Positions 46,825 to 58,418 of a DNA stretch of 64,000 nucleotides are shown piece after piece. Made by a program: the position numbers and the translations under genes. A model generated the notes under the pieces. That model made no database searches and was not told the origin of the DNA. It saw only the letters and a list, made by a program, of their open reading frames with translations. The stretch comes from Desulfobacca sp. (GTDB taxonomy: Bacteria > Desulfobacterota > Desulfobaccia > Desulfobaccales > Desulfobaccaceae). Positions within the stretch are counted from its first letter, which is position 1. Every line of letters starts with the position of its first letter. The stretch covers positions 62,001-126,000 of the forward strand of contig DYEV01000034.1 of assembly GCA_020725545.1 (NCBI GenBank), in the 5' to 3' direction.

Positions 46825-47928
46825 ATGGCCCACACTATCACCCTCAGCGTTATTAAAGCCGATGTGGGCGGCTATGTGGGGCATTGCTCCATGCACGGCG
46901 ATCTCATCGAAGAGGCCACCAATCGCCTGGAGGAGAGCCGCATCAAAGGCTTCCTGGTGGACTTCCATGTCACCGCCTGCGGCGATGACCTGGAACTCAT
47001 CATGACTCATCGTCACGGCCCGGACAACGAGGAAGTCCATCGCCTGGCTTTTGACACTTTCATGGCCTGCACCGATGTGGCCAAGCGCTTGAAATTATAT
47101 GGCGTTGGCCAGGACCTCCTGAGCCACTCCTTTGCCGGCAATATCCGGGGCATGGGGCCCGGCGTCGCCGAAATGGAGTTTGTGGAGCGGGAGGCCGAGC
47201 CCATCGTTATCTTCATGGCCGACAAAACCTCCGCCGGCGCCTGGAATCTGCCGTTGTATAAAATATTCGCCGATCCCTTTAATACCGCCGGCCTGGTCAT
47301 CGCTCCCAGCCTACACGACGGCTTCCGGTTCGAAGTCCTGGACGTCAAGGAACATAAACGGGTCTTTTTCGACGCCCCGGCCGAACTCTATGACCTGCTG
47401 GTCTTTATCGGTGCCCCCGGCCGCTATGTGGTCAAAGCGGTCTATAGCAAAGATGGTGACATCGCCGCGGTCTCGTCCACCGAACGTCTGGCCCTCATCG
47501 CCGGCAAGTATGTGGGCAAAGATGATCCGGTCTGCATCGTCCGCTCCCAAGGCAAGTTTCCCGCGGTCGGCGAGATCCTGGAACCCTTTACCATGCCCCA
47601 TATTGTCGCCGGCTGGATGCGCGGCTCCCACCACGGCCCCCTCATGCCGGTGCCGGTCTTTCAGGCCAACCCCAGCCGCTTCGACGGCCCACCCCGGGTC
47701 ATCTGCCTGGGCTTCCAAATGGCCCATGGCCACCTAGTGGGGCCCTGCGACCTTTTTAATGATCCCAGCTTTAATGAAGCCCGGCGCCTGTGTAATATTA
47801 TCGCCGACCACATGCGCCACCACGGCCCCTTTGAACCCCACCGCCTGCCCCTGGACGAAATGGAATATACGACCCTGCCCGTGGTCATGGCCAAACTCCG
47901 GGATCGTTGGGAAGCCTTGCCGGCCTAA
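46825..47928 (+). CDS. Fructose-1,6-bisphosphate aldolase/phosphatase (class V FBPase)
   Basis: A 367-residue bifunctional enzyme that condenses glyceraldehyde-3-phosphate and DHAP and dephosphorylates the product to fructose-6-phosphate, making gluconeogenesis one-way. It begins TLSVIKADVGGYVGH, with metal-binding Asp and His, and has GDDLELIMTHRHG, FMADKTSAGAWNLPLYKIFADPFNTAGL and GFRFEVLDVKEHK, all typical of the archaeal-type family. Found mainly in archaea and deep or thermophilic bacteria; it implies CO2 fixation or growth on C1/C2 substrates. Confidence 0.93.
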   Translation: MAHTITLSVIKADVGGYVGHCSMHGDLIEEATNRLEESRIKGFLVDFHVTACGDDLELIMTHRHGPDNEEVHRLAFDTFMACTDVAKRLKLYGVGQDLLSHSFAGNIRGMGPGVAEMEFVEREAEPIVIFMADKTSAGAWNLPLYKIFADPFNTAGLVIAPSLHDGFRFEVLDVKEHKRVFFDAPAELYDLLVFIGAPGRYVVKAVYSKDGDIAAVSSTERLALIAGKYVGKDDPVCIVRSQGKFPAVGEILEPFTMPHIVAGWMRGSHHGPLMPVPVFQANPSRFDGPPRVICLGFQMAHGHLVGPCDLFNDPSFNEARRLCNIIADHMRHHGPFEPHRLPLDEMEYTTLPVVMAKLRDRWEALPA

Positions 47929-48174: not shown

Positions 48175-48203
48175 TTGACAAAATAATAAACAATAATTAT
48201 AGG
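48175..48203 (+). promoter_or_regulatory. Promoter of the RiPP-like locus
   Basis: A perfect -35 TTGACA (48175-48180), a 17-base spacer and TATAGG (48198-48203). It gives a leader of roughly 180 bases, strongly A/T-rich, before the radical SAM gene. Confidence 0.65.
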
Positions 48204-48210
48204 TAGATAA

Positions 48211-48222
48211 TTACTATAGTAA
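48211..48222. promoter_or_regulatory. Perfect palindrome TTACTATAGTAA
   Basis: A 12-bp perfect palindrome about eight bases downstream of the putative -10, so close to the transcription start. A repressor bound here would block the RiPP-like operon. Confidence 0.45.
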
Positions 48223-48253
48223 ATATTCCTTATGACAAATTATATTAATTTCT

Positions 48254-48269
48254 ATATAGTTAACTATAT
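48254..48269. promoter_or_regulatory. Perfect palindrome ATATAGTTAACTATAT
   Basis: A 16-bp perfect palindrome in the leader of the radical SAM gene, 43 bases from the start of the first palindrome. Both contain an ACTAT/ATAGT element, which suggests two sites for the same regulator. Confidence 0.45.
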
Positions 48270-48394
48270 TTTAATCAATGGTTTAAAACTATCGCATGTG
48301 TGTTAATAATTTCACATCCACTGTTATCAACTTCCTGATGGTACTGCGAGACTGACGATAAATCAATAAAAGTATTATCAGGTTAGGAGCTCTT

Positions 48395-50257
48395 ATGGGA
48401 GGTGTGCTGTTCGTCGTCATGCCCTTTGGGGCCCTGGAAGCCCCCCAAGTGGGGGTCAGCACCATGAAATCCCAACTCATCAGGCACGGTCTGGCCTGTG
48501 ACATCGCCTACCTGAACTTCCCCTTCGCCGCGGCCCTGGGTCCGGACAATTATCAGGAAATCATCAACTATGCTGGTACCTTGTTCATCGGCGAATGGCT
48601 TTTCGCCCAGAATCTCTTTCCTGACAGCCTCGATCACCAGGGTTATATTGACAACATCCTCATGAAAGGCGGCGGCCTGGATGCTGGCAAGGTCCAGCGG
48701 ATTCTGGACTGGACCCACCTCATCGAGCCATTCCTGAGCTTCTGCCTGGCGGAGGTGGAATGGGAACGCTACACGATCATCGGCTTCACCAGCATGTTCG
48801 AGCAGAATCTGGCCAGCCTGGCTCTGGCCAAGCGCCTGAAAGAGCGTTATCCCGACAAAATCATGGTTATGGGCGGCGCCAACTGCGCCGGTCCCATGGG
48901 GCGGCAGCTGCATCAGGCCTTCCCCTTTCTGGACTTCGTCTTTACCGGCGAAGCCGATCTGGTCTTCCCCGAATTGGCCCGCCGTCTGCTCGCCGGCGAA
49001 TCGTGGCAGAATGGCCTGAGGGGCTTTGTTTACCGCCGCGGCCAGGAATCGGTGGACACCGGTCCAGCCCCGCTCCTGCGGGATCTGGACACCCTCCCCT
49101 ACCCCAATTACGATGACTATGTCCACCATCTGCAGTTCACTCCGGTGACGCCCCGGCACAAGGTACAGATGGTCCTGGAAACCTCCCGGGGCTGTTGGTG
49201 GGGCGAAAAGAATCACTGCCGCTTCTGCGGTCTCCACGACCATGAACTCCCTTATCGCGCCAAAACCCCCCAACGGGCTCTGGCCGAAATCCTGCATCTG
49301 GCCGGCCGCTACGGTTTCCCCAACATCATGCCCGTGGATAATATCCTCAACCTCGCCTATTTCAAGACCCTCTTGCCTGAACTGCGCCGCCGCCGGCCGG
49401 GCATCTGCCTGTTTTATGAAACCAAGGCCAACCTCAAAAAGGAGCAGGTGCAGCTCCTCCGGGAAGCCGGGGTCACCCGCATTCAGCCGGGGATCGAGTC
49501 CTTCAGTGCCAATGTCCTGAAGCTCATGCATAAAGGCGTCACGCCCTGGCAGAATATCCAGTTGTTAAAATGGTGCCGTCAGTATCAGGTAGATGCAGCC
49601 TGGAACCTGCTGTACGGCTTCCCCGGCGAAAATTCCCAGGATTATCGCGATACTCTGGAGATTGTTCAGGCCATCAGTCATCTGCACCCGCCCATGGCCT
49701 ACGGCTGGATCGGTATGCACCGTTTCAGCCCCATCTTCCATGATCCGGAAAAGTTTAAGTTGCGGCATATCCGGCCGCTGGCCGCCTACGAGTACCTGTA
49801 TCCCTTTGCCGCCGCCGTCCGGCAGAATCTGGCCTATTTCTTTGATTTCGACTTTGACGGCAAGGAAAAGACCGAGTATTGGTTCCAACCGGTCAAGGCT
49901 GCGGTGGAACTTTGGCAGGCCCAGAGTGAGCAGATCCGCCTGGAGGTCTGCCACCGGGATAGCCAGGGGATGACCGTGCTGGACACCCGGCCCCGGCGCG
50001 TCGGCGATTACCACCGCTTCAATCCCTGGGAGGCCGCGATTTTGACCTACTGCGATGAACCAAAAACCGTCGCTCAGATCCAGACGTTCCTGGCCTCGCA
50101 GCGGCCACCGGCTGCCTATTCGGAGGCCTGGCTATCGTCCTTTCTGGCGGAGCAGCGGGCCAAGCGGCTCCTGCTGCAATTTGACGAGAAGTACCTCAAC
50201 CTCATCCTTTTGGAACCCCCGGCTGCCCAAGCGGGGGGTGCGTTTTGGACCAGATAA
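48395..50257 (+). CDS. RiPP maturation radical SAM protein (B12-type C-methyltransferase family)
   Basis: A 620-residue enzyme like the RiPP maturation radical SAM protein 1 family, members of which are thought to C-methylate peptides using cobalamin. Residues 1-225 resemble a B12-binding fold (VVMPFGALEAPQVGVSTMKSQL and VMGGANCAGPMG) without the DxHxxG motif. The 4Fe-4S motif is C267-x7-C275-x2-C278 (CWWGEKNHCRFC), then the radical SAM barrel (LFYETKANL, GIESFSANVLKLMHKG). The last 90 residues look like a winged-helix substrate-binding domain. AGGAGC precedes the ATG. The presumed substrate gene follows 81 bases later. Confidence 0.88.
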   Translation: MGGVLFVVMPFGALEAPQVGVSTMKSQLIRHGLACDIAYLNFPFAAALGPDNYQEIINYAGTLFIGEWLFAQNLFPDSLDHQGYIDNILMKGGGLDAGKVQRILDWTHLIEPFLSFCLAEVEWERYTIIGFTSMFEQNLASLALAKRLKERYPDKIMVMGGANCAGPMGRQLHQAFPFLDFVFTGEADLVFPELARRLLAGESWQNGLRGFVYRRGQESVDTGPAPLLRDLDTLPYPNYDDYVHHLQFTPVTPRHKVQMVLETSRGCWWGEKNHCRFCGLHDHELPYRAKTPQRALAEILHLAGRYGFPNIMPVDNILNLAYFKTLLPELRRRRPGICLFYETKANLKKEQVQLLREAGVTRIQPGIESFSANVLKLMHKGVTPWQNIQLLKWCRQYQVDAAWNLLYGFPGENSQDYRDTLEIVQAISHLHPPMAYGWIGMHRFSPIFHDPEKFKLRHIRPLAAYEYLYPFAAAVRQNLAYFFDFDFDGKEKTEYWFQPVKAAVELWQAQSEQIRLEVCHRDSQGMTVLDTRPRRVGDYHRFNPWEAAILTYCDEPKTVAQIQTFLASQRPPAAYSEAWLSSFLAEQRAKRLLLQFDEKYLNLILLEPPAAQAGGAFWTR

Positions 50258-50338
50258 CCGGCCGGGGGATGTCCCTGACCAATGGTGCGGCCTTGTCGGC
50301 CCCTCTCCCTTCACCCCCCAATATGGAGGAATCCTTAG

Positions 50339-51367
50339 ATGTGCCAGTATTGTGGTTATGACCCCTATGGCGAGATGTCCGGCCATGGCCCCGGCGAGTG
50401 CTGTCAGGGCGAGTACGACCCCTATGCCGGGGGCTACGATCCCTACGCCGGCGGCTACGGCTATGATCCCTACGCCCCGTCCGCCGGAGCCGCCCCAGCC
50501 TATGAGGAGATGCCGCTGCCTTCGGCCTTCTACCGGCCGCCGGCACAGTTCCGGCCTCCGGCCGCCTTCCGCCCCCAACTCTACAACCGGCCGCCGGCCT
50601 ATCACCGCCCCCCGGTCTATGCCCGGCCGCCGCTGCTGGCCCGACCGCCCATGGGGCCGCAGTATTATTTCGGTCCGCATCCCGAACCCTGGACTGCTGG
50701 CCCGGAAGCCGCTGTGCCCGAGTACGAACCCTACGCCCCGGAAGCTCCGGCATATCAGCCACTGCCGCGGCCCGTGGCCTATTTCCAGCCCCCGGCTTTT
50801 GCCCGGCCGCCGTTGTTCGCCCGACCGCCAGCCTATTTCCGCCCCCCGGCCTACTTCCGCCCGCCGGTCTATGCCCGGCCGCCCATGGGACCGCAATATT
50901 ATTTCGGCCCGCATCCCGAACCCTGGGCTGCCGGCCCGGAAGCCGCTGTGCCTGAGTATGAACCCTACGCCCCGGAAGCTCCGGCATATCAGCCACTGGC
51001 GCGGCCCGTGGCCTATTGCCGCCCTCCGGCCTTTGCCCGGCCGCCGGTGTTCGCCCGCCCGCCGGCCTATTTCCGGCCGCCGGCCTATTTCCGGCCGCCA
51101 GCCTATTTCCGGCCGCCAGCTTATGCCCGGCCACCCATGGGACCGCAGTTTTCTTTCGGGCCGGAGCCCGATCCCTGGGCCGGTGCTTATGAACCCACCG
51201 GGGCGGAGTATGAACCCTATGCCCCGGAAGGTACGGCATATCAGCCACTGCCGCGGCCCGTGGCCTATTGCCGCCCTCCGGCCTTTGCCCGGCCGCCGGT
51301 GTATTTCCGGCCCCCGGTGTATGCCCGGCCGCCTCTGCGCCCGGTGGATTATCCCCCGCCCTTTTAA
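50339..51367 (+). CDS. Candidate multi-core RiPP precursor, Pro/Tyr/Phe-rich repeat protein
   Basis: A 342-residue low-complexity protein. Residues 1-50 have Cys at 2, 5, 21 and 22 and four YDPY units (YDPYAGG twice). From residue 63 onward it is built from RPPAYF/RPPVYA-type hexads. Three long units start with MGPQYYFGPHPEPW (105, 183; variant MGPQFSFGPEPDPW at 267) and contain PEYEPYAPE-APAYQPL-RPVAY. Two more Cys (227, 311) occur in VAYCRPP. No signal peptide or membrane segment. GGAGG lies just upstream. Its place between a RiPP radical SAM gene and a peptidase gene suggests it is the substrate; a structural Pro-rich protein is the alternative. Confidence 0.7.
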   Translation: MCQYCGYDPYGEMSGHGPGECCQGEYDPYAGGYDPYAGGYGYDPYAPSAGAAPAYEEMPLPSAFYRPPAQFRPPAAFRPQLYNRPPAYHRPPVYARPPLLARPPMGPQYYFGPHPEPWTAGPEAAVPEYEPYAPEAPAYQPLPRPVAYFQPPAFARPPLFARPPAYFRPPAYFRPPVYARPPMGPQYYFGPHPEPWAAGPEAAVPEYEPYAPEAPAYQPLARPVAYCRPPAFARPPVFARPPAYFRPPAYFRPPAYFRPPAYARPPMGPQFSFGPEPDPWAGAYEPTGAEYEPYAPEGTAYQPLPRPVAYCRPPAFARPPVYFRPPVYARPPLRPVDYPPPF

Positions 51368-51392
51368 TGGGCCACAGCAATAAATTCTGCAT

Positions 51393-51464
51393 GCGTCCTC
51401 CGGTCTGACGGACGCCTCAGGACCCGTAGACACCGATATCCCGGGGAGATCGCCTCTCCCCGGG
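51393..51464 (+). other. Two hairpins between precursor and peptidase genes
   Basis: GCGTCC (51393-51398) pairs with GGACGC (51410-51415); CCCGGGGAGA (51440-51449) pairs perfectly with TCTCCCCGGG (51455-51464). Neither is followed by a T-run. They may stabilise the upstream mRNA or reduce expression of the peptidase relative to the precursor. Confidence 0.6.
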
Positions 51465-51512
51465 ACCCTGTGTCAATCATCTTCTCACTGCCACCAGAGA
51501 CGGGAGAACCAT

Positions 51513-52985
51513 ATGCCGGAAAAAAAACGTTACATCGTGGCCCACCGCCACGGCCCTCAGTTGGATCCCAAATCCGTTCAGGAATTACAAAATTTTGTGG
51601 CGGCCCACGAAGAAGCCGCCATCAAACGGACCACCCTGGTGGGCCGCACGGTCGTGGAGATGACCGAAGCCCAGATGCAGGAGTTGGCCCAGAAAAATCC
51701 GCAGCTCCTCATTGAGGAAGATCAGGAGCTACAGCTCTTTGGCATGCCCGGCATCCCCGAACGGGTACCCACCGCCGGCGCCTATGAGTTGACCGTAGCA
51801 GTTACCGATGCCGCGGATAACAAACCCCTGGCCAACGTCACAATCTACGGCCTCGGCTCCGGTGTTGCCTATAAAGGCGTCACCGACGCCGACGGCAAGG
51901 CCGTTCTGCAGGTTTTTGAACCGACCCTGGAGCGGCTTATCGCCTCACCGACTGATACTTATTGGTCCAAGGTCATTAACAAGGTCAATCTGGCCAACAC
52001 CTCCACGTTGGCCATCTCCCTGCAGGCCCTGGTCACCACCGGCGCCTATGATTGGGGCCACCGGCTCCTGGGTTTCCATACCGTCAACCAGCGTTGGACC
52101 GGCAACGACATCAAGGTCGGCGTCATCGACTCGGGCATCACCGATAAACACCCCGATCTGAAGCCGGTGGGCGGCTACAACACCCTGGACGGCCAGGATA
52201 ACAACGCTTGGAATATCGACGAAAAAGGCCACGGCACTCATGTGGCCGGGATCATCAACGCGGTCAACAATACCATCGGCGTCGTCGGCGGCGCACCCAA
52301 AGCCAAGATCTATTCTATCAAAGTCTTCCCCGGCGGCTACATCAGCGATCTGGTGGAAGCCGTGGAATGGTGCATCCGCAATAAGATGGACGTCATCAAC
52401 ATGAGTCTGGGGGCCGCCAACCCTTCCCAGGTTTTGGCCCAGGTTCTCCAGGATGCCTACGACCGGGGCATTACCTGTGTGGCCGCCGCCGGCAACGAAA
52501 AGACCCGGGTGGCCTACCCCGCCGCCCTGCCCACGGTGTTGGCCGTCTCGGCCATCGGCCGCTTCGGCACCTTTCCCGAAGACAGCGCCCATGCCTTGAA
52601 AGTATCCCAGACCGTGGACTATCGGGGCGGCCTCTTTGCCGCCAGCTTCACCAACTTCGGTCCGGAAATCGACGTCTGCGCCCCGGGCGTGGCTATTCTC
52701 TCCACCACGCCCTCCGGCTATGCCGCCTGGGACGGCACCTCCATGGCCTGCCCCATGATCAGCGCCCTGGCCGCCCTGATCCTCGAGGCCTACCCGTCCA
52801 TCCGCAGCGGCGATCCCCAACAGCCCGAAGCCGTCAAGGCCCTGCTCTATGGCTCTTGCGCAGATCTGGGCATGCCCCCGGACATCCAAGGCCGCGGCCT
52901 GCCCTTGGCCCACCAGGCCCTGGTCTGGGCCGATTATTATCAACCACCGCAATGGCAGCAGCCGCATTCACCCTCCTACCTGTAA
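51513..52985 (+). CDS. Subtilisin-like S8 peptidase of the RiPP-like locus
   Basis: A 490-residue subtilase. Residues 1-75 resemble an I9-type propeptide (KRYIVAHRHG...EDQELQLFG), 88-150 a carboxypeptidase-regulatory-like beta domain, and about 185-470 the S8 catalytic domain: D206 (VIDSGITD), H240 (GHGTHVAG), N328 (AAAGNE) and S410 (GTSMACP). There is no signal peptide, so it should act in the cytoplasm, as RiPP leader peptidases do. The C-terminus, WADYYQPPQWQQPHSPSYL, is Pro/Tyr-rich like the neighbouring repeat protein. GGGAGA precedes the ATG. Confidence 0.9.
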   Translation: MPEKKRYIVAHRHGPQLDPKSVQELQNFVAAHEEAAIKRTTLVGRTVVEMTEAQMQELAQKNPQLLIEEDQELQLFGMPGIPERVPTAGAYELTVAVTDAADNKPLANVTIYGLGSGVAYKGVTDADGKAVLQVFEPTLERLIASPTDTYWSKVINKVNLANTSTLAISLQALVTTGAYDWGHRLLGFHTVNQRWTGNDIKVGVIDSGITDKHPDLKPVGGYNTLDGQDNNAWNIDEKGHGTHVAGIINAVNNTIGVVGGAPKAKIYSIKVFPGGYISDLVEAVEWCIRNKMDVINMSLGAANPSQVLAQVLQDAYDRGITCVAAAGNEKTRVAYPAALPTVLAVSAIGRFGTFPEDSAHALKVSQTVDYRGGLFAASFTNFGPEIDVCAPGVAILSTTPSGYAAWDGTSMACPMISALAALILEAYPSIRSGDPQQPEAVKALLYGSCADLGMPPDIQGRGLPLAHQALVWADYYQPPQWQQPHSPSYL

Positions 52986-53189: not shown

Positions 53190-54782
53190 TTAGGCCCGTA
53201 CCCGGCGTCGGCCGACAATGATCATGCCCATAACACCGGTGACCATGAGAACCATGGAACCGGGGATGGGCACGGGGCAGACCTGGGCCTTGAGGACGGT
53301 AAAGACATCAGTATTGTCGATATAGCGGCCGTCAAAACCCGCCGCCAGCCAGTCAGGGTAGTATTTGGCGAAATAGTCATCTTTGCCGTCCACCAGGGCC
53401 TCAAACAACTCGGCGCCGGCGCCCCGGGCAAACAGGGCTACCAGTTCGTTGGTGTGGTTGTTGGAATGCCATTTCACCTGGGGCACGCCGGCCACATCCG
53501 CTAAGGTCAGGCGATCCATGAACTTGGTATGGGAATTGGGGCCCAAGGGCATGGAATTGCCATGATCGGTAGTAATGATCAGGAGGTTGTTGTCCCAACC
53601 GCCGTTGGCCTCAATCCAGTTGATTACCCAATCCACCGTCTGGTTAAAATCCCGCTGCTCTTCGATGAGCCGGGCGGTCTGGTTACCATGCGCGGCCCAG
53701 TCCACGGCACCACCCTCGATCTGGATGAAGAAGCCTTTGTTAGTGGTGGCCTGGCTTTTGGCGGCGAGGGCGTTGACCGCACCCTTGGTCATGGTCAGAA
53801 GGGTGGGAACGTTTTTGTTCAAGGGATCCTCGTCCACCTTATCCGTGGGGGCAAAGCCGCTGCGGGACTGCTGCAAAGTGGTGGCCACTTCGGCGGTGCC
53901 CACCAGCCGCAGGTTGGTCGGATTGGTTAAGAGAGGCGAGGTGCCGTTGGCCAGTTTCTCGAAATCCGGCTTGGTCTGGATCAGCTTCCAGCCCTCGGGA
54001 TGGGTCCCTTCGTTCAGGGCAATCCAGGTGTCCCGACCGCCCACATAGCGGGCCACCGAATCAGTGACCGCCGGATTGTTGTAATTGACAATCTGCCGGA
54101 TGCCGTCATCGTTGAATTGCGGGTGCCCGGCCCCCATAATCACGTCCATAACCTTGCCGTTGAGCATATTATTGGCAATGGCTATATAGTTGTTCCGGCT
54201 GATATTGTGGGCATTGCTGAACGCAGCCGGGGTAGCGTGGGACCATTGCACAGAGGAGATGGTACCTACCGCCTTGCCACATTCCTTGGCCAATTCCGGG
54301 ATGGTGGGCTTGAGGGGCGCGCCCACATCTTTGGGATCATTGCTCCAATTAATGGCATTGTTATAGGTCTTCTGACCGGTGGCCAGGGCCGTGCCAGCCG
54401 CAGCTGAATCGACGGCGTTCTGCCGCAGATAGTGATAACCCTCGAAATAGTAAGGATAGCCGCCAGAGCTGCCCGCCTTGGGGGTGGCATCCCAGGCCTT
54501 GGCAGGATTGTAGCTCACTTCCTGCACATTCCCACCCTTGGGTGTGTTGGCCATGTTCAAGGGATACGTGGTCATGAGGTATTTCTTGTAATCCTTCCCA
54601 AAATAGGGGGAAGCCGTGGTGCTGCCTTTGGTATACAGGTCTGCCGCGTCCCAGGCGCCGAGGCTGGCCCCGTCCGAAATCATCATGAAGACGTTTTTGC
54701 CCCCGGCCCATGCAGGGAGCGCCACCGAGAAAGCTAAGGCCAACACCAGGCTGGCCAGCCCATATTTTCTCAGATTCAACAT
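53190..54782 (-). CDS. Alkaline phosphatase with PEP-CTERM-like tail
   Basis: A 530-residue secreted phosphomonoesterase of the PhoA superfamily. Signal peptide MLNLRKYGLASLVLALAF...AWA; metal Asp in FMMISDGASLG; the phosphorylated Ser in NAVDSAAAGTALATG; further metal ligands in GGAVDWAAHGNQ and IITTDHGN. The C-terminus CPVPIPGSMVLM, a hydrophobic helix and GRRRVRA form a PEP-CTERM-type sorting signal, so the enzyme is probably processed by an exosortase. Likely role: phosphate release from organic esters outside the cell. Confidence 0.92.
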   Translation of the reverse strand: MLNLRKYGLASLVLALAFSVALPAWAGGKNVFMMISDGASLGAWDAADLYTKGSTTASPYFGKDYKKYLMTTYPLNMANTPKGGNVQEVSYNPAKAWDATPKAGSSGGYPYYFEGYHYLRQNAVDSAAAGTALATGQKTYNNAINWSNDPKDVGAPLKPTIPELAKECGKAVGTISSVQWSHATPAAFSNAHNISRNNYIAIANNMLNGKVMDVIMGAGHPQFNDDGIRQIVNYNNPAVTDSVARYVGGRDTWIALNEGTHPEGWKLIQTKPDFEKLANGTSPLLTNPTNLRLVGTAEVATTLQQSRSGFAPTDKVDEDPLNKNVPTLLTMTKGAVNALAAKSQATTNKGFFIQIEGGAVDWAAHGNQTARLIEEQRDFNQTVDWVINWIEANGGWDNNLLIITTDHGNSMPLGPNSHTKFMDRLTLADVAGVPQVKWHSNNHTNELVALFARGAGAELFEALVDGKDDYFAKYYPDWLAAGFDGRYIDNTDVFTVLKAQVCPVPIPGSMVLMVTGVMGMIIVGRRRVRA

Positions 54783-55361: not shown

Positions 55362-58300
55362 ATGAGTATTACCCGCCGAAGCTTTCTCAAAGGGTTGGGC
55401 GGCGGCCTGGCCTCCATGGGTCTGGCCGAGGCCCTCTGGCAATCGCCCAGTTGGGCCTATCAGGTACCTGCCGCCAAGATAAAAAACGCCGCCATCACCA
55501 CCTCCATCTGTCCGTATTGCGGCGTCGGCTGCGGCCTCATCGTCCACAGCAGCAACGGCCGACTCCTTAACGTCGAAGGCGATCCTGACCATCCCATTAA
55601 TCAAGGTTCCCTCTGTAGCAAGGGGCAGGCCGTCTTCCAGATTGTGAATAATGACCTGCGGTTAAAAAAGGTGAAATACCGGGCCCCGGGAAGCGACGAC
55701 TGGGAAGAAAAGCCCCTGGATTGGGCCCTCCATATCTTAGCGGAGCGGATCAAGGCCACCCGGGACGCCCATTTTATCGAAAAGTCGCCGGAAGGGGTCA
55801 CCGTCAACCGCACCGAGGCCATCGCCTCCATCGGCGGCGCCGCCCTCAATAATGAAGAATGCTATCTGATCTCCAAATTGATGCGGGCCTTGGGCATCGT
55901 CTATCTGGAACACCAGGCCCGCCTCTGACACTCCTCCACTGTGGCCTCGTTGGGGCCCACCTTCGGCCGGGGTGCCATGACCAACCATTGGAATGACCTG
56001 GCCAACAGCGATTGCATCCTCATTGTCGGGGCCAACCCGGCGGAAAATCATCCCATCAGCTTTAAACACATCGGCACCGCCCTGGAGAAAGGGGCCAAAC
56101 TCATCGTCGTCGACCCCCGTTTTACCCGCTCCGCGGCCAAAGCCGATCTCTTTATCCGCCTGCGGCCCGGCAGCGACATCGCCTTGTTCAACTGTTTAAG
56201 CAATTATGTCATCCAAAATAATCTCTTTCATAAGGACTACGTCGTCAATTACACCAACGCCAGTTATATTATAAAATCAGGGTTCGATTTTCAGGAAGGC
56301 CTCTTCTCTGGCTTTGATCCGGCCAAGAAGGCCTATGATTTCTCCACGTGGGATTATGAGACGGATGGGCAAGACAATCCGCTCACCGATCCCACCCTGC
56401 AGCATCCCCGCTGCGTCTTCCAGTTGCTCAAGCAGGAATTCAGCCGCTATACGCCGGAATTGGCCGAAGCCGTCACCGGCGTGCCCAAAGAGCAGGTCCT
56501 GGCCATGGCCAAACTGTATAGCAGCACCGGGCAGCCGGGCAAGGCCGGGACCATCATGTATGCCATGGGCGCCACCCAACATTCCACCGGTGTACAGATC
56601 ATCCGCAGCTACTCCATTCTGCAGCTCCTGTTGGGCAATATGGGCATACCGGGAGGCGGCATCAATGCCCTCCGGGGAGAGAGCAACGTCCAGGGCTCCA
56701 CGGACATGGCCCTCCTCTTCCATGTGGTGCCGGGGTATATGGCCATCCCCAATGCCGCCAACCATCCAACCCTGAAGGATTATCTGGAAAAGGAAACCCC
56801 TAAGGCCAGTTTTTGGGTCAATAAACCGAAATTTTTCATCAGCCTGCTCAAGGCCTGGTGGCTGGATGCCGCAACCCCTGAAAATAATTTCGCCTATGAT
56901 TATCTCCCCAAGATCGGCAAGGGTTATGAGGGCGGCGGCTATTCCTGGGTGCCCATGATGCATGCCATGGACAACGGCGATATCAAAGGTCTCATCGCCT
57001 GGGGCATGAATCCGGCGGTGGGGTCCGCCAATCTGAACCATACTTATGCAGCCCTGGCCAACCTCGAGTGGCTGGCCGCCTTTGACCTCTGGGAAACGGA
57101 GACCGCCGTTTTCTGGAAGCGCCCTGGCGCCAATCCCCAGGAGATCAAGACCGAGGTCTTCCTCTTCCCGGTAGCCGATGCCTTGGAGAAAGAAGGCTCC
57201 ATCAGCAACAGTGGCCGCTGGATCCAATGGCGCTATCCGGCGGCCAAGCCCCAAGGCGACGCCAGGAGCGATCTCTGGTACGTCAACCGCCTAGCCCTGG
57301 AGTTGAAGAAACTGTATCGGGAAGACCTCAGGGCTGTCTGTCCGAAACCCATCGGCCACCTGTATTGGAACTATGGCGATAATCCCGATGTCCATCTGGT
57401 GGCCAAGGAGATCAACGGCTTCACCGTCGCCGACCGCAAACAGGTGGCCAATTTCCTGGCCCTGAAAGACGACGGCTCCACCGCCTGTGGCTGCTGGATC
57501 TATTCCGGGTTTTACCCCGGTCTGGACAAGAACGATAACAAGGCTGCGGCCCGAGACAAGAAAGACCCCAGCGGTCTAGGCCTTTATCCCGGGTGGGCCT
57601 TCTCCTGGCCGGTGAACCGGCGCATCATTTATAACCGCTGTTCCGTGGACGCCCAGGGTCAGCCCTGGAATCCGGCCAAGGCCCTGGTCCGCTGGGATGA
57701 CGCGGCCCATAAATGGATTAGGAACGACGTCCCTGACTTCAAGTGGATCGATCCGGCCACCAAAATGGAGGCGCCACCCGAGGCTTCATTGGCCACCGCC
57801 TATCTCATGCTGCCCGAAGGCCGGGCCCGCCTCTTCATCCCCAAAGGCGCCACCCGGGAAGGTCCCTACCCGGTCCACTACGAAGCCCTGGAGTGCCCCT
57901 TTATCAATCCGGTCTATCCCAAGCAGCAATCCAACCCGGTGGTCAAGATTTGGAAGTCCAAATTGGATCAATACGCCCAGATCTGCGATCCTCTCTATCC
58001 CTATATCGCCACCACCTTCCGGCTGACGGAACATTGGCAGACCGGCGCCATGACCCGGAATCTCCCCTGGCAGGCGCAACTCTTCCCCGAAATGTTCATC
58101 GAGATCAGCCCCAATCTGGCTAAGGCCAAGGGTATCAAGCCCGGCGATTGGCTCAAGGTGTCCAGCGCCCGGGGCTCGGTGTTGGCCCGGGCCCAGGTGA
58201 CCAATCGGGTCCAGGCCTTCCGCTGCGGTCTGCCGGGCATGGAAACCACCGTGGAAATGGTGGCCCTGCCCTGGCATTTCGGCTTCGCCGGCCTAATCAC

Positions 58301-58418
58301 CGGCGGCCCCGATAAGAACCAGAACTACGCCGTGAACCAATTGTCACCGGCGGTAGGCGATGCCAACACCATGATCCCGGAATACAAGGTATTCCTGGTC
58401 AATCTGGAAAAGGCCTAA
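55362..58418 (+). CDS. fdhA: Formate dehydrogenase catalytic subunit, selenocysteine-containing
   Basis: One 1018-residue protein read through TGA at 55926-55928 as selenocysteine (residue 189): the codons around it give HQARL-U-HSSTVASLGPTFGRG, the exact place of Sec in FdnG/FdhA enzymes. It has a Tat signal (SITRRSFLKG), a 4Fe-4S site (CPYCGVGC...CSKG), the bis-MGD molybdenum or tungsten domains, and a C-terminal molydopterin-binding barrel. It oxidises formate or reduces CO2 in the periplasm. GGGAGAG precedes the ATG. Ordinary gene callers would split it at 55928 and 55941. fdhB, an nrfD-like gene and fdhE follow. Confidence 0.97.
55941..55960 (+). promoter_or_regulatory. Candidate bacterial SECIS element
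   Basis: GTGGCC (55941-55946) pairs with GGCC-CAC (55953-55960, one bulge) around a TCGTTGG loop, starting 12 bases after the UGA. Distance and size fit a SelB-binding SECIS hairpin within the coding region. Confidence 0.55.

Follow-up and report, generated by a model that had tools for sequence, protein, structure and literature searches.

A cobalamin-dependent radical SAM enzyme adjoins an Arg-Pro repeat protein, its probable substrate, and an S8 peptidase in Desulfobacca sp.

INTRODUCTION

In GRRM and other multi-repeat systems, including triceptides and those of the freyrasin type, a radical S-adenosylmethionine (SAM) enzyme modifies repeated motifs within one polypeptide; these are SPASM enzymes, which install cross-links in Gly-rich or Cys-rich repeats, and no cobalamin enzyme is involved. 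In the quinohaemoprotein amine dehydrogenase system, the SPASM enzyme QhpD makes thioether cross-links on a subunit and the cytoplasmic S8 protease QhpE cuts, without B12 and without repeats. The bottromycin precursor, modified by three cobalamin-dependent enzymes, is short and leaderless. Here we describe a three-gene locus of Desulfobacca sp. that recalls each of these systems. It lies in a stretch of 64,000 nucleotides (contig DYEV01000034.1, positions 62,001 to 126,000; hereafter the window, with coordinates counted from its first letter) and encodes a B12 (cobalamin) radical SAM enzyme, a long Arg-Pro repeat protein, and an S8 (subtilisin) peptidase. We estimate a probability of about 0.6 that the three genes together make up a single unit of post-translational modification, in which the enzyme acts on the repeat protein and the peptidase acts afterwards.

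Among the closest described systems are those of B12 radical SAM peptide C-methyltransferases with an unusual CX7CX2C motif, namely PoyB and PoyC of the proteusin polytheonamide, which place many methyl groups on one ribosomal peptide, and BotRMT1-3 of bottromycin, which C-methylate Phe, Val, and Pro (PMC11285071, PMC5682303). Taken together, PoyB, PoyC, and the bottromycin enzymes C-methylate Val, Ile, Phe, and Pro; the methylated carbon is reported to be a beta carbon for PoyC and is proposed to be one for the bottromycin enzymes (PMC11285071, PMC5682303). The polytheonamide precursor consists of an NHLP-type leader and one core of about 49 residues, and its protease is the cysteine protease PoyH (PMC10885120), whereas the window encodes a 342-residue Arg-Pro repeat protein without an NHLP leader and an S8 peptidase. 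Unlike in bottromycin clusters, no bottromycin-specific genes adjoin the locus. In the literature searched, we found no description of TIGR03975 enzymes, the family treated here, acting on such substrates, of multicore products of B12 radical SAM enzymes among the ribosomally synthesized and post-translationally modified peptides (RiPPs), or of precursor-protease fusions.

RESULTS

The enzyme resembles cobalamin-dependent peptide C-methyltransferases

The first gene (48395..50257, + strand; 620 aa) encodes a cobalamin-dependent radical SAM enzyme of TIGR03975, a family annotated as RiPP maturation radical SAM C-methyltransferases. The protein scores 639.6 bits against the family profile (cut-off 281.85), with residues 4-604 of 620 aligned to profile positions 1-605 of 606. 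The CX7CX2C [4Fe-4S]/SAM motif occupies residues 267-278 (CWWGEKNHCRFC; C267-x7-C275-x2-C278; 49193..49228, + strand). Specifically, E262, R265, G266, C267, W268, W269, C275, and C278 are common to 14 relatives, among which the cysteines are invariant. A preliminary description of the window, made from the letters of the sequence alone, had assigned the enzyme to the RiPP maturation type from this motif, and the profile score and the invariant cysteines bear the assignment out.

An AlphaFold2 model of the enzyme (pLDDT 87.7) matches OxsB (Z 24.9 over 400 residues), CysS (Z 22.2), TsrM (Z 21.6), and TokK (Z 21.3). The alignment with OxsB spans residues 1-505, which comprise an N-terminal cobalamin-binding domain and the radical SAM barrel; the Pfam B12-binding match is below cut-off (17.9 versus 32.1). 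The domain layout and the three-cysteine motif are those of class B (cobalamin) radical SAM methyltransferases. By analogy with the described CX7CX2C enzymes, it is plausible that the enzyme C-methylates carbons of a peptide or protein.

The C-terminal part of the enzyme (residues about 515-604; 49937..50206, + strand) is probably a RiPP recognition element (RRE), that is, a PqqD-like peptide-binding domain, as judged from its modelled topology and several weak matches. In the model, these ~90 residues adopt a beta3-alpha3-beta2 arrangement, with the strand-helix order of the RRE/PqqD winged helix. Searched against Pfam, the C-terminal piece of the window enzyme matches PqqD only (E 0.19), and the corresponding piece of a relative in another genome, G052, has PqqD as its best match (E 0.023); both matches are weak. 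The piece from a further relative, in genome G353, weakly matches the N terminus of lantibiotic dehydratase (E 0.22), the region in which NisB-type enzymes have their RRE. Of the 10 pieces searched, six had no Pfam match, and one matched other helix-turn-helix families. A comparison by hhalign with a thin PqqD profile gave E 8e-4 and a probability of 25.

The repeat protein is a candidate multi-site substrate

The second gene (50339..51367, + strand) encodes a Pro/Tyr-rich protein of 342 residues, 93 of them Pro, 42 Tyr, and 23 Gly, which we regard as a candidate multi-site substrate on the strength of its repeat count and its counterparts elsewhere. It contains 22 [RK]PP motifs, versus an average of 2.0 and at most 7 in composition shuffles. 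As seen in the sequence and in the comparison of repeat copies, RPP[AVL][YF][FA] repeats and three super-repeats fill positions 50534..51364 (+ strand), with the super-repeat of 78-84 residues (GPQYYFGPHPEPW...YAPEAPAYQPLPRPVAY) interleaved with runs of RPP. Residues 1-62 (50339..50524, + strand) are non-repeat and constitute a candidate leader with CxxC, CC, and four DPY motifs. The earlier picture of a protein made of RPPAYF-like repeats is thus right as to motifs in excess of chance, and needs amending for the non-repeat N-terminal part and the interleaved super-repeats. The N terminus has a weak GECC...DPY likeness to that of the G052 repeat protein, with 48 of 1000 shuffles scoring equally high. 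In both proteins, the residue after [RK]PP is always A, V, L, M, I, or F. This is compatible with a beta-carbon methylase, without proving one.

The repeat protein has no family match in Pfam or NCBIfam, and so no NHLP or Nif11 leader, and it has no apparent signal peptide or anchor. A homology search of 59 genomes (its own and relatives) returned only the protein itself; relatives were missed because of low complexity, and the link was revealed by gene neighbourhoods instead. At the DNA level, this genome has 12 matches to the pattern RPPx3RPPx3RPP, all inside the repeat gene among the matches listed; in 395 genomes of the phylum, the next highest count is 6, of which five fall in one repeat with a different codon pattern. 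The repeats are spanned by three overlapping open frames. In all comparisons made between repeat copies, differences peak at the third codon position, and G+C is lowest at the second, which favours the frame given here; these observations, together with the Shine-Dalgarno site, led us to reject a wrong reading frame.

Related enzymes adjoin repeat proteins in other genomes

The linkage of the enzyme, Arg-Pro repeats, and an S8 peptidase recurs. In G052, from another family of the phylum, a one-strand run encodes a metzincin-like protein, two small proteins, a repeat protein (348 residues, RPPIVPF/RPPF repeats), a SPASM enzyme, a B12 enzyme 40% identical to that of the window, and an S8 peptidase 46% identical to that of the window over residues 1-470, the reading frame of which overlaps the stop of the B12 enzyme gene. 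The three-gene set, which the preliminary description had proposed to seek in related genomes, is therefore found again. At E 1e-20, no counterpart of the SPASM enzyme was found in the 29 genomes of the order searched, the genome of the window included, so that a two-enzyme system is not needed in the window. The metzincin-like protein of G052 (L036 16588-18813, minus strand; 741 residues) has the motif HELGHCFNLLHSW and an N-terminal repeat-like PIMPIKPIMPVKPIL stretch, and has no match in Pfam or NCBIfam.

In G353, from a third family, the repeats are fused to the peptidase: the S8 protein carries an RRPIxPI-type tail, RRPIDPIRPIGPIRRPIEPI, with RRPIDPIRPIGPIRRPIEPIRRPIQPIRRPTPIEPIRPIVP near its C-terminus, and its gene ends 52 nt before the gene for a B12 enzyme 41% identical to that of the window. 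With about 24% identity, the peptidase of G353 is no more than a distant relative of that of the window, so that S8 peptidases have been joined with repeats more than once. A further case is seen in G268 (L088/L089, G268:C22, minus strand), where the S8 gene (6136-8031 of L089) overlaps a PqqD-like radical SAM/SPASM gene (4722-6173 of L089) and a BTAD-type regulator gene lies upstream. Its S8 protein is 38% identical to that of G353 and has a C-terminal Cys-Arg-Ala-Pro repeat tail (CYRAPICRRAPVC). This is an independent combination with another enzyme type, and judging from the sequence the gene looks like an undescribed precursor-protease fusion, perhaps of the thioether type.

Repeats without an S8 gene seen nearby accompany the enzyme at two further kinds of locus. 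In Candidatus Angelobacter AA117, a member of the Acidobacteria, the gene for a protein of 472 residues with 16 RPIV[DE][VM] motifs (L026 4540-5958) lies 68 nt upstream of two TIGR03975 enzymes and adjoins one for an AMMECR1/phosphoribosyltransferase-like protein. Fragments of the 472-residue protein are also present in the Acidobacteriaceae genome clean1655 (L023 12886-13269); the search around this locus covered the genomes of four such loci. In G028, of the same order as the window (L037 2047-6430, G028:C161, minus strand), a 94-residue SIQTIES-repeat peptide is followed by a GT9 glycosyltransferase, a 1061-residue GT4-GT4-radical SAM/SPASM fusion, and a B12 enzyme (41% identical). The product at this locus is possibly a glycosylated and C-methylated repeat peptide.

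More distant members of the family have other partners. TIGR03975 enzymes of the same phylum with 29-34% identity (L038, L039, L060, L090) adjoin short leader-core precursors of the Nif11/NHLP type, unlike the window in having no repeat array, and cyanobacterial ones (39%) adjoin an 80-residue leader-like peptide. A search among closer relatives of G052 and of G353 yielded one further genome, G484, whose precursors are of the NHLP type. Homologues of the enzyme are thus not always found with a different precursor: distant ones occur with Nif11/NHLP types, and the nearest ones with repeat proteins.

A maximum-likelihood tree of 36 TIGR03975 proteins groups the enzymes of the window, G052, G028, G353, and a Niallia plasmid (91/93). 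The repeat-partner label requires 4 changes on this tree versus 9.0 in shuffles, with 0 of 500 shuffles as low, a figure to which near-copies within Acidobacteria contribute. Since the nearest homologues adjoin repeat proteins and the label clusters on the tree, we consider it likely that the repeat protein is the substrate of the B12 enzyme, as had been proposed from the window alone. The adjoining repeat gene and its counterparts in G052, G353, and Acidobacteria supply the genetically linked ribosomal precursor that characterizes radical-SAM RiPPs. The locus differs from the GRRM type, as the candidate target is Pro-rich (93 Pro, 23 Gly) and the adjoining enzyme belongs to TIGR03975.

The locus is scattered

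Full-length relatives of the S8 peptidase were found in only 2 of the 395 genomes of the phylum, both with the enzyme and the repeat gene. In three other genomes of the same genus, neither the enzyme nor the repeat protein was seen, and one of these is broken inside the S8 gene. Specifically, one contig of a same-genus assembly starts within the S8 gene (L041 1-241, G001:C120): the terminal part that it retains is 87% identical and adjoins the phosphatase gene also seen in the window. The remainder of the locus was not found in that assembly. The scattered occurrence suggests that the locus spread by horizontal transfer. A search of PLSDB plasmids with the S8 peptidase and the enzyme revealed no trio like this one; the plasmid enzyme with the highest score, from Niallia (37%), has no clear substrate gene alongside. 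About 3.6 kb from this TIGR03975 gene, the Niallia plasmid encodes a CxC-containing protein (L043 2028-2420) with GGMSPGM (Gly-Met-Ser-Pro) repeats and a YFEDDYYY end.

The peptidase, the intergenic hairpin, and the flanking genes

The third gene (51513..52985, + strand) encodes an S8 peptidase of 490 aa (PF00082, 174 bits). D206, H240, N328, and S410 are present and are invariant between the window and G052 peptidases. No signal peptide is obvious, in agreement with the preliminary description. The N-terminal domain (residues 1-72; 51513..51728, + strand) is modelled as a beta-alpha-beta-beta-alpha-beta, ferredoxin-like fold, in blocks with pLDDT 66-91, and matches the pro-subtilisin prosegments 3cnq_P and 1spb_P (probability 1.00, TMt 0.59, E 0.02-0.04) as well as other ferredoxin-like folds. 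Because of this resemblance to prosegments, the peptidase is probably made as a zymogen. The AlphaFold2 model, made from a single sequence (pLDDT 42), is unreliable beyond this domain. A weak match to a carboxypeptidase regulatory-like domain covers residues 93-167, and the score of the peptidase against the QhpE model, 90 bits, is below the cut-off of 165.

Between the repeat gene and the S8 gene, the RNA can form a hairpin (51429..51474, + strand) of -29.5 kcal/mol (z -4.5), and 0 of 200 shuffles are as stable. Such a hairpin may set the dose of the substrate above that of the protease.

All three genes are intact, lie on the + strand, and have a Shine-Dalgarno-like site before the ATG: AGGAG for the enzyme, GGAGGA for the repeat protein, and GGGAG for the peptidase. 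A sigma-70-like consensus scan places a promoter-like site, ATGACA-17-TATAGT (48232..48260, + strand; 10/12 matches), in the AT-rich gap 5' of the enzyme gene, a match that by itself is no evidence of function; the scanned region holds an excess of such matches, 8 versus 2.5 expected. The layout of three genes on one strand behind one promoter-like sequence is as first described. The 5' neighbour across the AT-rich gap is a fructose-1,6-bisphosphate aldolase/phosphatase gene (46825-47928). The convergent gene 3' of the locus (53190-54782, - strand) encodes a protein that by eye is alkaline-phosphatase-like and has a PEP-CTERM-like C-terminus (VPIPGSMVLMVTGVMGMIIVGRRRVRA). Farther downstream (55362-58418, + strand), a formate dehydrogenase-like alpha subunit gene has an in-frame TGA (HQARL*HSSTVASLGPTFG), most likely encoding selenocysteine.

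DISCUSSION

The three genes, their families, the fold of the enzyme, and the recurring linkage of the enzyme with Arg-Pro repeats and S8 peptidases are established. What follows on substrate recognition, on methylation and the residues that receive it, on when and why the chain is cut, and on the release of small peptides is inferred. The B12 enzyme, probably by means of the RRE-like domain at its C terminus, would recognize the N-terminal stretch of the repeat protein that lies outside the repeats. It would then C-methylate unactivated carbons, likely beta carbons of Val, Ile, Pro, or aromatic residues, at many [RK]-P-[P/I]-aliphatic units, the methylated residue being the aliphatic, Pro, or aromatic one that follows [RK]P[P/I] in each unit. 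Enzymes of this clade would thus probably methylate long repeat proteins instead of the family's usual short peptides. The peptidase, bearing its own prosegment, would act in the cytoplasm on the modified chain, either removing the leader or cutting between repeats, and the hairpin between the last two genes may hold the substrate above the protease. That the peptidase cuts the repeat protein at all has, in our judgement, an even chance.

Several observations weigh against this account. The matches to RRE domains, though concordant, are each below threshold. The repeats vary by lineage (RPPAYF, RPPIVPF, RRPIxPI, ARPIVEV), so that the exact target residue cannot be read from the sequence, and the SIQTIES repeat peptide of G028 is Pro-poor, yet belongs with an enzyme of the same clade. 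In G353 and G268, the repeats form a protease tail followed by an acidic end, with no free C-terminal core. The pairing of the window and G052 enzymes on the tree has support of only 89/76, and the complete trio is present in only two genomes. Finally, the open reading frames of the window and the family scans agree with the preliminary description that no exporter or immunity gene adjoins the locus.

The absent exporter and immunity genes are among the features that favour the main competing explanation, a modified structural polypeptide. Here the repeats would build an extended polyproline-II rod or an adhesive layer, C-methylation would make it stiffer or harder for proteases to attack, and the chain would stay uncut; the peptidase would serve quality control or turnover. 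The size of 342-348 residues and the polyproline-II-type sequence suit such a role, as does the repeat-like stretch in the metzincin-like protein of the G052 operon. In addition, the repeats of G353 and G268 are internal to larger proteins, with the acidic end behind them, an architecture that agrees with a modified polypeptide tail no less well than with a classical small RiPP. However, a purely structural role would not call for a protease gene, yet one accompanies the repeats in two or three lineages, and the repeat protein has neither an apparent signal peptide nor an anchor; we regard this explanation as unlikely, if the strongest of the alternatives. The tails of G353 and G268, each fused to an S8 peptidase beside a radical SAM gene (that of a B12 enzyme in the first, the PqqD-like type in the second), could also mean that the protease itself is the client, with Arg-Pro tails as modified handles on it and, in the window, a tail split off as a separate S8 binder or inhibitor. 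The repeated origin of the S8-repeat pairing, indicated by the distant relationship of the window and G353 peptidases, is in keeping with this idea, but the peptidases of the window and G052 are tailless and the Acidobacterial and G028 loci have repeats with no S8 peptidase seen nearby, which makes it improbable. That the genes are chance neighbours, with the enzyme directed at something else and the repeat protein and peptidase unrelated to it, is very improbable. The enzyme and repeat protein are indeed unseen in the three other genomes of the genus (one broken inside the S8 gene), but G052 has the trio again and G353 a related fusion, enzymes with repeat neighbours fall together on the tree, and the RPP array, present a single time in this genome, has no equal in the other genomes of the phylum scanned.

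Under the reading of one modification unit, the end product could take either of two forms: the fused tails of G353 and G268 favour a long methylated polymer, and the protease gene that travels with the repeats favours released peptides. In a broader and more tentative view, a scattered class of cobalamin radical SAM enzymes would modify Arg-Pro tandem-repeat chains of hundreds of residues, free or fused to a protease, to give hyper-C-methylated polyproline-like polymers or dozens of methylated peptides per chain, and the subtilases of G353 and G268, with tails modified by radical SAM enzymes, would be precursor-protease fusions. The locus is a variant of radical-SAM RiPP or protein modification and not a new category.

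Low-complexity substrates escaped the homology search used here, so that such loci may be overlooked by mining based on known precursor families. The B12 radical SAM enzymes so far known to C-methylate peptides have short cores, preceded by leaders, as their targets. If our reading is correct, this chemistry would extend to repetitive polymers through a clade whose partners, in two phyla, are long Arg-Pro repeat proteins. Each substrate would offer dozens of near-identical sites, useful for studies of site selection, and the protease fusions would provide a second, testable architecture.

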